Below are positions 10,367 to 19,547 of a stretch of 31,008 nt of DNA, one piece after another; the first letter of the stretch is position 1; each line of letters opens with the position of its first letter. The notes beneath the pieces are model-generated. The model searched no databases, was not told the DNA's origin, and saw nothing but the letters and a program-made list of their open reading frames with translations. The position numbers and the translations under genes were made by a program. The stretch is from a virus, in the IMG/VR virus record IMGVR_UViG_3300010885_020426, positions 1 through 31,008 of that record. The stretch is one strand, 5' to 3'.

Positions 10367-13300
10367 ATGGTTGATCGTACACTGTGGCCTAGACTTAGGA
10401 GAATGTTTTCAACAGATGTTGTAATAAGAAATATAGGAGGAACCAAACTAAAAGTTATGGATGTGGAACGCATTCAGAGTTTTGGCCAACTTCAAACAAA
10501 TTCTCTTGTAGATAGATTTACACGCCTTCATAAGGCAGGGCAAAGAATGCAATTCAATCCCACACTAAATTACCAAACTTTAAGATTACAATTATATTCT
10601 GATTATGAAGCAATGGATACAGACGGTATCATCGCATCAGTATTAGACATTCTCTGTGAAGAAGCTACTTTAAAAGGAGATACTGGGGAGGTTCTTACAA
10701 TTAGAAGTTCTAACGAAAATATTCAAAAAGTATTGTATAATTTATTTTACGATGTATTGAATATAGAATTTAATCTTCCTATGTGGATTAGATCAATGTG
10801 TAAATATGGTGACATGTTTTTACATTTAGAGATTGCTGAAAAATATGGCATATACATGGCTAGACCGTTGTCTGTATATGATATGATTAGAGAAGAAGGC
10901 CAAGATCCTAACAATCCATCTTATATTAGATTTGTTTATGATCCTGTATCAGTAGCCGGAGGTACAACAGCTACTAAAAATAAAGAAACTTTTGAGAATT
11001 TTGAGATTGCCCACTTTAGATTGCTTACAGATACTAACTATTTACCATTTGGTAGATCTTTTATAGAACCTGCTAGAAAATATTTTAAGCAATATGTGTT
11101 AATGATGGATGCTATGTTGTTGCATCGTATTATGAGAGCACCTGAAAAAAGAGTATTTTACATAAATGTAGGAAATATTCCGCCTAATGAAGTTGATGCT
11201 TTCATTCAAAAGACAGTAATGTCTATGAAAAAAACTCCATTTATGGACCAAAATACAGGAGATTATAACTTGAAGTTTAATGTTCAAAACATGCTTGAAG
11301 ATTTTTATATTCCTGTTAGACCTGGTGACACTACTACAAAGATAGATACTGCTAAGGGATTAGAATATGCGGGTATAGAGGACGTTGAATTTCTTAGAGA
11401 TTTGATGTTAGGATCGTTGAAAGTTCCTAAATCTTTTTTGAATTATTCAGATGAATTGAATGGAAAATGTATTCATTCGGATACTAAAATACCTTTATTA
11501 TCAGGAGAAGAGATGACCATAAAGGAGATATCTGATTTATTTGAAAACGGAAATGATCCAAATCTTTGGGTTTACTCTTATGACAAAGAGAGTAATAGTA
11601 TTATACCAGGAAAAGTAGTGTTAGCAAAGAAAACTAGATTAAACGCAAATTTAGTTAAAATTACTTTGGATAATGGAGAGTCTATTATAACAACTCCTGA
11701 TCATGGATTTTTACTAAAGGGCGGAGAAAGGATAAATGCGGAGAATTTAAAAGAAGGAGATTCTTTACAAGCTGTATATAGGGAAAATAGAAAAATAAGA
11801 AACCAACAAAACCCATATGAGCACGTATATCAACCTAATTTAAATAAATGGCAACCTACACATAAAATGGTTGATGAGTGGTTAAACGGAAAAATATTAA
11901 ACAATGGTTTTGATGAGCAAGGTTTGTTTAGTAGGGATTCTATGATTGTAGTTCATCATAAAAATTTTGATAGATATAACAACCATCCTGACAATTTACA
12001 AAGATGTTCTTTTAGAGAGCATTCTGATATACATATTTTAAATGCTAAAAATGGAATATGGAGTGAAGAGGCCAAAATTAAAGCTAAAAATACAAAAAAC
12101 ACTGTTGAGTACAAATTAAAAGCATCTAAAATAGGAAAAGAGAATATGGCTAAACAATGTAAAAAAGATCCTAATGCTAAAAACAGAGTTAGGGACATTT
12201 GGATAAGTAAAACATTTGAGGAAAGATCCGCTCTTACAAAATCTAGGGTAACTGATGAAACAAGAGACAAGTGTAGAAAAAATGGTAAAAAAAGTTATTT
12301 ATTGCATAGCGAAAATCTTTTAAAAGCTTATAAAGATAAATTTAAAGGAGAAAGACATGATTTGAGAAGAGAGAATAGTGTAGTATGGGTAGATAGGCCT
12401 TCTATAGAAGAAATTATATCTTTTATAGAGTCTCATGACAATATAAATGATATAAATAAACCTAGAAAACTTGCTAAAGCTATGGGGTATTCTATACATG
12501 TTTTTGAAGATGCTATAAAAATGGCAGGGTGGGACATAGAAGAATTCTTTAATGAATATACGGGTTTTTTAAAAGGCAGGCATAAATATATTAGGAGAGA
12601 TTATTTAATACAGATTTTATCTAGTTGTAGCTCTTTAAAAGAATTTACTAACAAGTACGGAGTAGGCAGAAAAGGTATTAAATTATTTAATAAAATATTA
12701 GGTGAAAATATTGAAAAACATTTAAATACCACATATAATCACAAAGTAATAAGTGTTGAGTATTTAGATTACACTTCAGATACCTACAATATGGAAGTTT
12801 ATGACAAAAATGAAAATCATAATTTTTTAACTTCTTCTGGTGTTGTAATAAAAAACTCAACAATTTCTGCGCTCGACGTCAGGTTCAGCAGGACTATAGA
12901 AAGAATACAAAGAATTATAATAAGCGAGTTAGAAAAAATAGCTTTGATACATCTTTATGTCCAAGGATATGAAGACGCTGATTTAGTTAATTTCAAATTG
13001 TCATTAAACAATCCTTCTATTATTTATGAGCAGGAAAAAATAGCTCTACTAAAAGAAAAATTCAGTTTAGCTTCTGATATCATGGATAAGAAGTTAATGT
13101 CTTCTGATTGGATTGCTGACAAAATATTCCAAATGAGCGAAGATCAGCTTAATGAACAGAGAGAATTAGTGGTGGAGGATGTAAAAAGAATATACAGGTA
13201 CAACCAAATTGAAAACGAAGGGAACGATCCTACTGTATCAGGAGAATCTTATGGAACTCCTCACGACTTAGCATCTGTTTACAACGGGGCTAACAAGAAG

Positions 13301-13606
13301 CAAGAAGTACCGGACGGATATAATGAGAAGGAACCAAATCCTGTAGGAAGACCTAAAGAGAAATCCTCTATATATGGAACAGATAAATCATCATTTGGTA
13401 GAGATCCTTTAGGAAAATCTCAAAATACGGGAGTAAAATCTAATTATAGTGATAGAGATATAAAAGCTAAACCATTTGCAATGGAGGCTATTAGAGGATT
13501 ACAGTCTATAAAAAATAAGAAAATGGTGCTATTTGAGCAAAAAAATTCAGAACCTAGTATTTTAGATGAGAAAAATGTATTAGGTGATATTGATAATGAT
13601 AATTAG
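10367..13606 (+). CDS. Portal protein (T4 gp20-like) interrupted by an intein
   Basis: The portal forms the dodecameric ring at the head vertex through which DNA passes and which nucleates prohead assembly. The precursor is 1079 residues; removing the intein (368-830) leaves 616, somewhat longer than T4 gp20 (524). The N-extein has the gp20-like core (MQFNPTLNYQTLRLQLYSDY, MDTDGIIASVLDILCEEATL, HFRLLTDTNYLPFGRSFIEP, KVPKSFLNYSDELNGK). The C-extein resumes with STISALDVRFSRTIERIQRI, so the flanks join to a continuous, conserved portal segment. The C-terminal 110 residues are Gly/Lys/Asp-rich (NPVGRPKEKSS, RDPLGKSQN) and may be disordered. The gene ends with TAG just before another promoter motif. 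Confidence 0.95.
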   Translation: MVDRTLWPRLRRMFSTDVVIRNIGGTKLKVMDVERIQSFGQLQTNSLVDRFTRLHKAGQRMQFNPTLNYQTLRLQLYSDYEAMDTDGIIASVLDILCEEATLKGDTGEVLTIRSSNENIQKVLYNLFYDVLNIEFNLPMWIRSMCKYGDMFLHLEIAEKYGIYMARPLSVYDMIREEGQDPNNPSYIRFVYDPVSVAGGTTATKNKETFENFEIAHFRLLTDTNYLPFGRSFIEPARKYFKQYVLMMDAMLLHRIMRAPEKRVFYINVGNIPPNEVDAFIQKTVMSMKKTPFMDQNTGDYNLKFNVQNMLEDFYIPVRPGDTTTKIDTAKGLEYAGIEDVEFLRDLMLGSLKVPKSFLNYSDELNGKCIHSDTKIPLLSGEEMTIKEISDLFENGNDPNLWVYSYDKESNSIIPGKVVLAKKTRLNANLVKITLDNGESIITTPDHGFLLKGGERINAENLKEGDSLQAVYRENRKIRNQQNPYEHVYQPNLNKWQPTHKMVDEWLNGKILNNGFDEQGLFSRDSMIVVHHKNFDRYNNHPDNLQRCSFREHSDIHILNAKNGIWSEEAKIKAKNTKNTVEYKLKASKIGKENMAKQCKKDPNAKNRVRDIWISKTFEERSALTKSRVTDETRDKCRKNGKKSYLLHSENLLKAYKDKFKGERHDLRRENSVVWVDRPSIEEIISFIESHDNINDINKPRKLAKAMGYSIHVFEDAIKMAGWDIEEFFNEYTGFLKGRHKYIRRDYLIQILSSCSSLKEFTNKYGVGRKGIKLFNKILGENIEKHLNTTYNHKVISVEYLDYTSDTYNMEVYDKNENHNFLTSSGVVIKNSTISALDVRFSRTIERIQRIIISELEKIALIHLYVQGYEDADLVNFKLSLNNPSIIYEQEKIALLKEKFSLASDIMDKKLMSSDWIADKIFQMSEDQLNEQRELVVEDVKRIYRYNQIENEGNDPTVSGESYGTPHDLASVYNGANKKQEVPDGYNEKEPNPVGRPKEKSSIYGTDKSSFGRDPLGKSQNTGVKSNYSDRDIKAKPFAMEAIRGLQSIKNKKMVLFEQKNSEPSILDEKNVLGDIDNDN
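11468..12856 (+). mobile_element. Portal intein with HNH homing endonuclease
   Basis: A 463-residue in-frame intein. It starts with Cys368 (CIHSDTKIPLL, block A), has the TxxH motif of block B (Thr443-Pro-Asp-His446 in SIITTPDHGFLL) and ends NMEVYDKNENHNFLTSSG, then VVIKN before Ser831. The terminal Asn is present, but the residue before it is Lys rather than the usual His. The endonuclease is HNH type: VVHHKNFDRYNNHPDNLQRC followed by EHSDIH (His530, His531, Asn539, Asn543, His552). Downstream are two helix-turn-helix-like stretches (about 685-735 and 755-800) that could bind the target site. The element would home into intein-free portal genes of related phages. Confidence 0.92.
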
Positions 13607-18165: not shown

Positions 18166-18456
18166 ATGAAGAGGTACATATGGGGATTCAATGATAACGA
18201 TGATCCATATCAAAAAAGCATGGGGGTAGAAACCAATAACATAGTATCTCAATTCATAACTGAACTTGGTCCCGAAGGCATTAAAATCTTCAACAGCTAT
18301 GCTCCAAAGGGTTACGAAATAAAAAGTGTAGATGATTTACAGCATTATCCTACTGACGCCAAAGGAGGATATCCTCAAGCTACTATGTTCAATCCTGATA
18401 AATTAACTTCAAGAAGCGGCAGAGTAGCTGAAAATAGTAAAAAAATAAAAAAATGA
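18166..18456 (+). CDS. Small conserved protein upstream of the prohead protease
   Basis: A 96-residue protein I do not recognise. It has a mixed composition with an aromatic start (MKRYIWGFNDNDDPY), a central ELGPEGIKIFNSYAPKGYEI and a basic tail (SRSGRVAENSKKIKK). The stop overlaps the protease start (ATGA at 18453-18456), so the two are probably translationally coupled and the protein may work with the protease or be packaged with it. Another ATG at 18158 opens only a three-codon frame and was rejected. Confidence 0.55.
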   Translation: MKRYIWGFNDNDDPYQKSMGVETNNIVSQFITELGPEGIKIFNSYAPKGYEIKSVDDLQHYPTDAKGGYPQATMFNPDKLTSRSGRVAENSKKIKK

Positions 18457-19547
18457 GATTATTATCAGAATACTACGAAGTAAGTTTAAATCAGATACAA
18501 CTGACAGAAGCTGTTAACTCAGCTCCTGGCAGCCCTATAATGTTAAGAGGCATAATAATACAGAGAGCTGATGCTAAAAACAGAAATGGTAGAATATACC
18601 CAAAAGATGTACTTAAAAGAGAAATAGATAAGTATATTGAGAACATGGTTGATATGAATAGAGCATTGGGCGAATTAGACCATTGTTTTGTAGAAAACAA
18701 CTTTGATGTACTTACAGAAAGTGGGTGGAAATCCTTTAACGATGTTATTGAAGGAGAGAATGTTCTATCTTATAACATCAAAAACGGTGCTTTAGAGTAC
18801 AAACCTGTTTTAAAAAAGATAGAATCTACATACTCAGGAGATTCTTATTCTATAAAAGCTAGGAATATAAATACTCAAGTTACTGAAAATCACAAATTTA
18901 TATTAGAAGATAGGTATGGAAATAAAGAGTTTCATACTATTAAAGAAATATTTGAAAATAGAGTAAAATATAATAAATCTAAAATAATAAAAATACAAGA
19001 AGATAATTCAAATATAGATGAGTTGTCTGAAATATATGTTGATGATGACATGCAAATAGAAAAGCTACACCACGAAGGAAACATCTATTGTTTGGAAGTA
19101 AAAGATAATAACTCTTTTTATGTCAGACAGAATGATAAATGTTTTATCACAGGTAATTCAGCAGAATCCGTAGTAAACTTAAAAAACGTATCACACAACA
19201 TAAAAAGCATCTATTGGAAAGGAAATGATGTGGTAGCAGATCTAGAAATACTAGATGCTCCCGAATTCCCCGCAGGCAGAATAGCCGCAGGCCTACTAAG
19301 AAGAAAGATTCCAGTAGGGATAAGCTCAAGAGGAATGGGAAGTGTGGATGAAGCTAAAGACGGAACAGTAACAGTAAATGATGACTTTAATCTACTAACA
19401 TTTGACTTAGTATCATTTGAAAGTACTCAAGGAGCAAACATGTATTTACAAGAAGGAAAGACAATATCTAACGATAAAAATTCTAAAATTGACAGCATAT
19501 TAAAAGAACTAATATGCATAAATGCAGGGTACTGTCCTTGTGATTAA
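18453..19547 (+). CDS. Prohead maturation protease (T4 gp21-like) interrupted by a mini-intein
   Basis: This serine protease cleaves scaffold, core and capsid proteins during head maturation. The precursor is 364 residues, or 206 after removal of the intein (78-235), close to T4 gp21 (212). The N-extein carries RADAKNRNGRIYPKDVL and ends in ALGELDH, whose His77 is the predicted catalytic histidine. The C-extein begins SAESVVNLKNVSHNIKSIYW and contains VGISSRGMGSV (288-297) with the probable catalytic serine. The N-terminus has LTE before Ala20, a likely self-cleavage site. The C-terminus is unusually Cys-rich (LICINAGYCPCD). A terminator follows 15 bases after the stop. Confidence 0.93.
   Translation: MRLLSEYYEVSLNQIQLTEAVNSAPGSPIMLRGIIIQRADAKNRNGRIYPKDVLKREIDKYIENMVDMNRALGELDHCFVENNFDVLTESGWKSFNDVIEGENVLSYNIKNGALEYKPVLKKIESTYSGDSYSIKARNINTQVTENHKFILEDRYGNKEFHTIKEIFENRVKYNKSKIIKIQEDNSNIDELSEIYVDDDMQIEKLHHEGNIYCLEVKDNNSFYVRQNDKCFITGNSAESVVNLKNVSHNIKSIYWKGNDVVADLEILDAPEFPAGRIAAGLLRRKIPVGISSRGMGSVDEAKDGTVTVNDDFNLLTFDLVSFESTQGANMYLQEGKTISNDKNSKIDSILKELICINAGYCPCD
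18684..19157 (+). mobile_element. Mini-intein in the protease active site
   Basis: A 158-residue insertion starting with Cys78 (CFVENNFDVLTESGWKSF, block A), containing TxxH of block B (Thr-Glu-Asn-His in VTENHKFIL) and ending YCLEVKDNNSFYVR, then CFITGN before Ser236 (blocks F and G). It has splicing blocks at both ends but no room for, or trace of, an endonuclease. The penultimate residue is Gly instead of His. Joining the flanks gives GELDH-SAESVVNLKNVSH, the uninterrupted prohead-protease motif. Loss of the endonuclease means it can no longer home by itself. Confidence 0.92.

Follow-up and report, generated by a model that had tools for sequence, protein, structure and literature searches.

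A predicted mini-intein directly after the catalytic histidine of a T4-type prohead protease, and related inteins in the same loop of other phages

The gene for a T4-type prohead protease on a virus fragment is interrupted, directly after the codon of its catalytic histidine, by 158 in-frame codons. This raises the questions of what the insert is, how it came to lie at this position, and whether it has a part in the control of head maturation. The stretch of DNA analysed, here called the window, is 31,008 nt long (IMG/VR record IMGVR_UViG_3300010885_020426, positions 1 to 31,008) and all coordinates refer to it. On this 31-kb fragment of a virus record the protease is flanked by a T4-type terminase, portal, capsid protein and PhoH. 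From sequence comparison and structure modelling, the insert is read as a predicted self-splicing mini-intein of the class 1 type, with a probability of about 0.93.

The interrupted protease gene and its empty site

The ORF at 18453–19547 on the plus strand is an uninterrupted reading frame throughout, encoding 364 aa. The flanks of the insert match Peptidase_S77 (Pfam, E 1.8e-21) and the ORF matches PHROG 207, head maturation protease (E 7.6e-40). The order in the precursor is MRLL...ALGELDH, then the intein, CFVENNFDVLTESGW...QNDKCFITGN, and then SAESVVNLKNVSH..., with the following features.

18453..19547, +, precursor ORF, gp21-type prohead (head maturation) protease with predicted mini-intein, 364 aa (Pfam, PHROGs)
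18453..18683, +, N-extein, 77 aa, C-terminal end ...ALGELDH (alignment with intein-free homologues)
18681..18683, +, catalytic histidine codon, H77, at intein position -1 (invariant in 60 proteases; Ala in 5jbl)
18684..19157, +, predicted mini-intein, 158 aa (empty-site alignment, conserved residues, predicted HINT fold)
18684..18686, +, block A nucleophile Cys1 (Cys in 32/32 protease inteins and in the 2 later additions)
18882..18893, +, block B TENH: T67, N69, H70 (T and H in 32/32, N in 27/32)
18990..19049, +, LAGLIDADG endonuclease gap relative to full-length relatives, which have about 190 aa there (flanks IYVDDD..IEK align with IYLDDR..IKK of L085)
19089..19091, +, block F cysteine C136, 22 residues ahead of the terminal Asn (Cys in 30/32; spacing like 6zgq)
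19152..19157, +, block G end, Gly157 (penultimate) and Asn158 (Gly in 31/32, Asn in 32/32)
19158..19160, +, Ser+1, second nucleophile, adjoining the catalytic His once the protease is joined (+1 is Ser in 29/32, Cys in 3/32)
19158..19544, +, C-extein, 129 aa, with the catalytic Ser (GISSRG) and Asp (sequence alignment)
19323..19325, +, codon of the catalytic Ser, S291 of the precursor (invariant in 60; Ala in 5jbl)
19404..19406, +, codon of the Asp that is the third triad member, D318 of the precursor (invariant in 60; H-S-D triad in PMC5694885)

The insert is 474 bases long, its first codon being Cys and its last Asn, and the next codon is Ser. The coordinates in an earlier note on this DNA are exact to the base, from C1 to the GN before Ser. 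Alignment to full-length relatives likewise agrees with that note in finding no endonuclease and all of blocks A, B, F and G. The residue before the insert had been named as the catalytic histidine, and H77 is indeed invariant in 60 aligned proteases, as are S291 and D318. An H-S-D triad has been given for T4 gp21 and for the SPN3US homologue gp245 (PMC5694885). Membership of the Peptidase S77 family, the H77-S291-D318 triad and the fold of the solved T4 gp21 are those of a gp21-type protease. In the solved T4 gp21 chain, 5jbl, Ala stands in place of the aligned His (GELNAPP) and Ser (GVASRG), presumably as expected for an inactivated enzyme.

Close relatives were found by querying with the window capsid protein, which gave 16 contigs with major capsid proteins 72–78% identical. 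The proteases of all 16 are intein-free and have the same length as the joined window protease. Their exteins are about 64–72% identical to that of the window, with the intein-free L113–L115 at 70–72%. The empty-site consensus in these 16 relatives is GELDH-S/A/D-xxx-VVNLKN. The joined flanks of the window give GELDHSAESVVNLKN, which fits residue for residue to the empty sites GELDHSDSNVVNLKN, GELDHASDNVVNLKN, GELDHSQDNVVNLKN, GELDHSQENVVNLKN, GELDHADSNVVNLKN and GELDHDDSPVVNLKN. The insert therefore cuts GELDH off from the remainder of an otherwise complete protease, as had been proposed, at a point that alignment with intein-free gp21-like proteases of the same length defines to the residue. 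An in-frame insert that is missing from homologous proteases, and whose flanks join into uninterrupted sequence, is characteristic of an intein. Homologues keeping the 158 residues as a stable part of the protein were sought and none were found, the close relatives being intein-free.

Other intein-free relatives have GELDHP[ED]S in 80/80 cases. The loop after the catalytic histidine (18681 onward) varies freely in the clade of the window, L107–L122 and L142, with the variants SDSN, ASDN, SQDN, SQEN, ADSN, DDSP and SAES; HP[ED]S is otherwise invariant. One possible reason for the release of this loop beside the active site is loss of the homing target. The intein-free proteases of L256 and L258 have a Cys right after the catalytic histidine (GELDHCSQMVVELKN), a natural potential +1 residue.

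Inteins in other prohead proteases and in the portal

The first split homologues, in Desulfovibrio phage 7757 and the 484-kb phage LR756508, were found by tblastn. The set was enlarged by alignment-based IMG/VR scans and a degenerate DNA pattern for A-x-GELDH-C. An IMG/VR query with the single window protein gave 0 matches, its patterns being too specific; alignments and the capsid protein succeeded. A scan of genome contigs gave only four weak matches, which may or may not be proteases. The total is 34 distinct intein-bearing prohead proteases including that of the window, with near-copies counted once.

In most carriers (29 of the 34) the split follows the second residue beyond the catalytic histidine, ahead of the third, 28 of these being HPx↓S or C and one HSQ↓C (the arrow marks the insertion point). 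The split in L086 is one residue further on, HPDS↓S, and in L168 it is upstream of the histidine, SE↓SDHP, falling between E and a Ser that lies two residues ahead of His. The split is directly after the catalytic histidine in the window (H↓S), L267 (H↓T) and L268 (H↓S). A LAGLIDADG-type block is present in 31 of the 34 inteins, which are 348–395 aa long. The endonuclease-free inteins are those of the window (158 aa), L086 (151 aa) and L155 (158 aa). The intein of L168 (L168:3001-4086) is a related full-length one with the flanks SE↓SDHPEQS, which ends in TLN rather than TGN or SGN.

The inteins of phage 7757 (Nitratidesulfovibrio/Desulfovibrio; PV062637, OR395405), of the uncultured 484-kb LR756508 and of the IMG/VR contigs L085–L177 are, like that of the window, in the prohead protease; the records of 7757 and LR756508 are unannotated. 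They share with the window the loop after the catalytic histidine, a homologous splicing domain, C1 and Gly-Asn↓Ser ends. They differ in keeping the endonuclease (348–395 aa, as against 158 in the window), and in nearly all of them the insertion point is H-P-x↓S, further downstream than that of the window by two residues. The insertion points of L267 and L268, viral contigs of 113 kb and 245 kb, are identical to that of the window and their proteases also lack the Pro, but their inteins are full-length (357 and 365 aa), and identity to that of the window is only 30% and 25%. L086 and L155 are endonuclease-free in the same gene, with splits at HPDS↓S and HPS↓S.

A 6-nt slide after insertion was considered as a source of the shifted point and was dropped. 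Intein-free GELDH-S/A/D-xxx relatives keep the same length, so the loop changed independently of the intein. The association of the missing Pro with the H↓ point was discarded as a test because it is circular, since the +1 residue cannot be Pro.

A second intein is found in the window at 11468–12856, within the portal ORF at 10367–13606. It is 463 aa long, has an HNH endonuclease and splits a T4-type portal protein at ELNGK↓S. Relatives with 57–71% identity are present at the same place in L269, L272 and L273. In L269, which is the same contig as L114, the portal intein is present and the protease is intein-free. The L158 contig (= L270) has both a full-length protease intein and an end-to-end match to the portal intein (41%), so invasion of both head genes in a single phage is possible. 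The portal-type ORF of L273, at 1460 aa, exceeds those of L269 and L272 by about 365 aa and may contain a further insert. The ORFs of L102 and L105 are each about 1700 aa long; that of L102 has two or more intein-like blocks and that of L105, which looks portal-like, three or more. The closest named isolates by portal sequence outside the intein are the Flavobacterium phage immuto group, at 53% over the joined part. One of these, vB_FspM_immuto_2-6A (NC_055915; L274), has an intein-free protease, GELDHPESAIVSLKN. The likeness of portal and protease to those of Flavobacterium phages is a hint that the host of the window phage may belong to the Bacteroidota.

Conserved residues, fold and splicing route

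Residue conservation was counted in the first 32 protease inteins, with L267 and L268 added afterwards. C1, T67, H70 and N158 are invariant in the 32 aligned, and C136 is Cys in 30. The +1 residue in L267 and L268, the other two H↓ carriers, is Ser or Thr. The penultimate residue of the window intein is Gly, not His. Several inteins without conserved His residues still splice (PMC7664689). The Intein_splicing family of Pfam matches the insert with E 4.4e-7 and 30.3 bits, which is below the curated cut-off of 35.8 bits, and Pfam alone is therefore insufficient to settle its identity. The missing penultimate His and the score below the cut-off both count against an intein, although Gly at this position is the rule of the family (31 of 32). 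The identity is settled by the empty site in close relatives, the homologous inserts in 33 proteases and the predicted HINT fold.

Modelling of the intein by AlphaFold2 with 30 aligned sequences gave a HINT fold with a mean pLDDT of 91.6. Its Foldseek matches are solved inteins and related Hint domains, the best being the class 3 NrdHF intein 6zgq (top), BIL2, PolB1 and Npu DnaE, and VIA-align also gives matches to solved inteins with Z up to 21.3. A profile search of PDB sequences gave partial intein matches only. At 158 aa, and missing the LAGLIDADG block of its relatives, the window intein is of the endonuclease-free kind. Ser+1 is present, as it is not in BIL domains, the activity of which is mainly cleavage.

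Class 3 inteins are defined by the lack of an N-terminal nucleophile and by a Trp-Cys-Thr motif (PMC7664689). The window intein differs from these in having C1 and a Phe at the Trp position, while C136 and T156 are present. The distance of 22 residues from C136 to the terminal Asn is the same as that from C124 to N146, named in the title of the 6zgq entry. This likeness to the top structural match, together with a Thr or Ser at G:5 in 32/32, could suggest splicing through a branched thioester on Cys136, as in class 3, either instead of or besides Cys1. Such a route is unlikely, since Cys1 is invariant in the family, whereas class 3 inteins lack it, and the equivalent of the class 3 Trp is Phe in 31/32. 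The window intein is thus filed under the class 1 type from its residues and modelled fold, with the class-3-like route retained as a variant. The protease intein family appears to have the Cys1 of class 1 together with the block F Cys that class 3 inteins use.

By established intein chemistry, Cys1 would be acylated, the acyl group would pass to Ser+1, and cyclisation of the Asn and an acyl shift would then yield the joined protein. In the window, the protease would be translated as a 364-aa precursor in which Cys1 attacks the His77-Cys1 bond in an N-S acyl shift, probably assisted by the block B Thr and His. The N-extein would be passed to Ser+1 and Asn158 would cyclise. The exteins would be joined via the catalytic His and Ser+1 as ...GELDH-SAESVVNLKN..., giving in vivo a gp21 protease of normal length.

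The AlphaFold2 model of the precursor has a mean pLDDT of 84 and a pTM of 0.55. It matches 6zgq (Z 21.3) and, across the insert, T4 gp21 5jbl_B (Z 21.5; 156/164 residues, 2.4 A). This model is biased by intein-free homologues and bears on the fold only, saying nothing on activity. In the model, the protease fold can form around the unspliced intein. The earlier note's claim, that no active site is possible until splicing has occurred, is not established.

Descent, retention and the question of regulation

In the extein tree, the window belongs to a clade of 11 rows with 100% support, in which it alone has the intein and 10 rows are intein-free. Over the whole extein tree, intein presence requires nine changes, of which at least five are forced by well-supported branches. 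The intein tree places the window together with L085, L088, L003 and L162 (99/97; 92/90 after two rows were added), the exteins of which are only 27–35% identical to the window extein. The window and L085 are 51% identical in the splicing domain and 32% in the exteins. Exteins and inteins have different nearest relatives, which points to horizontal acquisition of the window intein. Identity to its nearest intein relatives is 51% at best. The G+C content of the intein, 0.27, is below that of most coding blocks (mean 0.32), but 4 of the 44 blocks are equally low, and base composition thus gives no sign that the intein arrived recently.

One origin for all of the inteins at the H↓ point is rejected, a single clade of these having a log-likelihood 32 units lower (p-AU 4e-7). 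This point was therefore invaded at least twice, in proteases without Pro. With L157 left out, one clade of the Pro-less proteases is not rejected (p-AU 0.44), though two long branches meet there. The Pro may have been lost once, the placement of the long-branched L267 and L268 being unsure.

The three endonuclease-free inteins (window, L086 and L155) are in three separate extein clades. The extein neighbours of L086 and L155 are the full-length carriers L164 and L161, respectively, and these two look like separate endonuclease losses. L155 and its full-length sister L161 are 87% identical in the splicing domain and 72% in the extein. Raw differences per site between them in the N-part of the splicing domain are 0.61 synonymous and 0.10 nonsynonymous, and in the last 34 codons 0.51 and 0.00. 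The splicing domain of this pair, one member of which is endonuclease-free, is under purifying selection; these values belong to the pair and not to the window copy.

The source of the window intein would be a family of phage inteins with LAGLIDADG endonucleases, homing to the loop after the catalytic histidine. Before it came, the usual HP[ED]↓S target in the window lineage would already have been H-S/A/D-xxx. The intein would have settled two codons upstream of the usual point, where the Ser now beside His serves as the +1 nucleophile, and would then have lost its endonuclease. Its persistence after this loss would follow from the lethality of splicing failure in an essential gene. For the same reason, endonuclease loss followed by retention is to be expected. 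The best reading of the window intein is as a selfish mini-intein, predicted to be competent in splicing, that has lost homing.

Homing inteins commonly sit in conserved active-site loops, and no regulatory reason is required for such a position. The earlier note had placed head maturation under the control of splicing and, as speculation, had suggested a benefit in delayed proteolysis. An inactive unspliced precursor would in that case enter the prohead, and delayed or redox-dependent splicing would release proteolysis there. The adjoining catalytic His, the endonuclease-free state in three extein clades and the disulphides possible in principle among C1, C136 and C153 are in keeping with such a timer or sensor. 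A precedent is the M. smegmatis DnaB mini-intein, which is inhibited by oxidation (PMC6195587). However, ten close relatives in the 100%-supported clade mature their heads without an intein, the distribution is sporadic, and C153 is not conserved (Cys in 11/32). The endonuclease is kept in most copies, so that homing accounts for the site. T4-type gp21 also has its own inhibition, its N-terminal region keeping it inactive up to completion of the prohead (PMC9958956). That splicing controls head maturation is therefore not supported, a regulatory benefit has no positive support, and a timer of this kind is quite unlikely. It is a little less probable again that splicing has been co-opted, with the endonuclease-free gp21 inteins of the three clades retained because splicing that is slow or conditional holds back proteolysis of the capsid until prohead assembly is finished.

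A degenerate or cleavage-only Hint domain, which would cut the protease without splicing it, is very improbable. The penultimate His and the endonuclease are missing, and BIL domains are among the structural matches. BIL domains have no +1 nucleophile (PMC7664689), whereas the window has Ser+1; the core residues are all kept, the Gly-Asn end is common to full-length relatives, and cleavage alone would destroy an essential protease. That the mature protease retains the 158 residues as a stable domain, instead of losing them to leave ...GELDHSAESVVNLK..., is hardly credible: the frame is open through the insert and AlphaFold2 folds both domains together, but all close relatives lack the insert, endonuclease-bearing versions lie at the same place in relatives, and the set of intein catalytic residues is complete.

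The selfish mini-intein favoured here resembles the mycobacteriophage inteins of terminase, portal and other proteins (PMC5050341) and the M. smegmatis DnaB mini-intein (PMC6195587), which are in active centres of essential proteins and in some cases lack an endonuclease. The host proteins named in the text consulted are terminases, portal and nucleic-acid enzymes, whereas that of the window is a capsid protease. Conditional splicing has been shown by experiment for DnaBi1; for the window intein it is a hypothesis. The nearest published statement found concerns Jug phages, in which the prohead protease and portal genes are reportedly fragmented, with introns and inteins common in the genomes; the text available of PMC12363816 gives no boundary or position for a prohead-protease intein. 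A literature search, mostly without subscription papers, turned up no published intein under the names gp21, prohead protease or head maturation protease, which is not proof of absence. The gp21-loop inteins are apparently a widespread set that is undescribed in the literature searched.

The loop right after the catalytic histidine of T4-type prohead proteases is a recurrent intein site, with 34 distinct carriers. Full-length, endonuclease-free and empty versions of this one site are present in related phages, and the insertion point shifts by a few codons to wherever a Ser, Thr or Cys is available. The intein group holds both Cys1 and the block F Cys. Intein-bearing proteases are easily taken for long or chimeric proteins, which is a risk in annotation. 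The recurrent site and its shifting register are of more interest than the single window element. They are useful for studying the choice of an exact insertion site by homing inteins and its change over time, and the protease inteins offer a clear case in which to test whether inteins regulate their hosts, an idea that is disputed.
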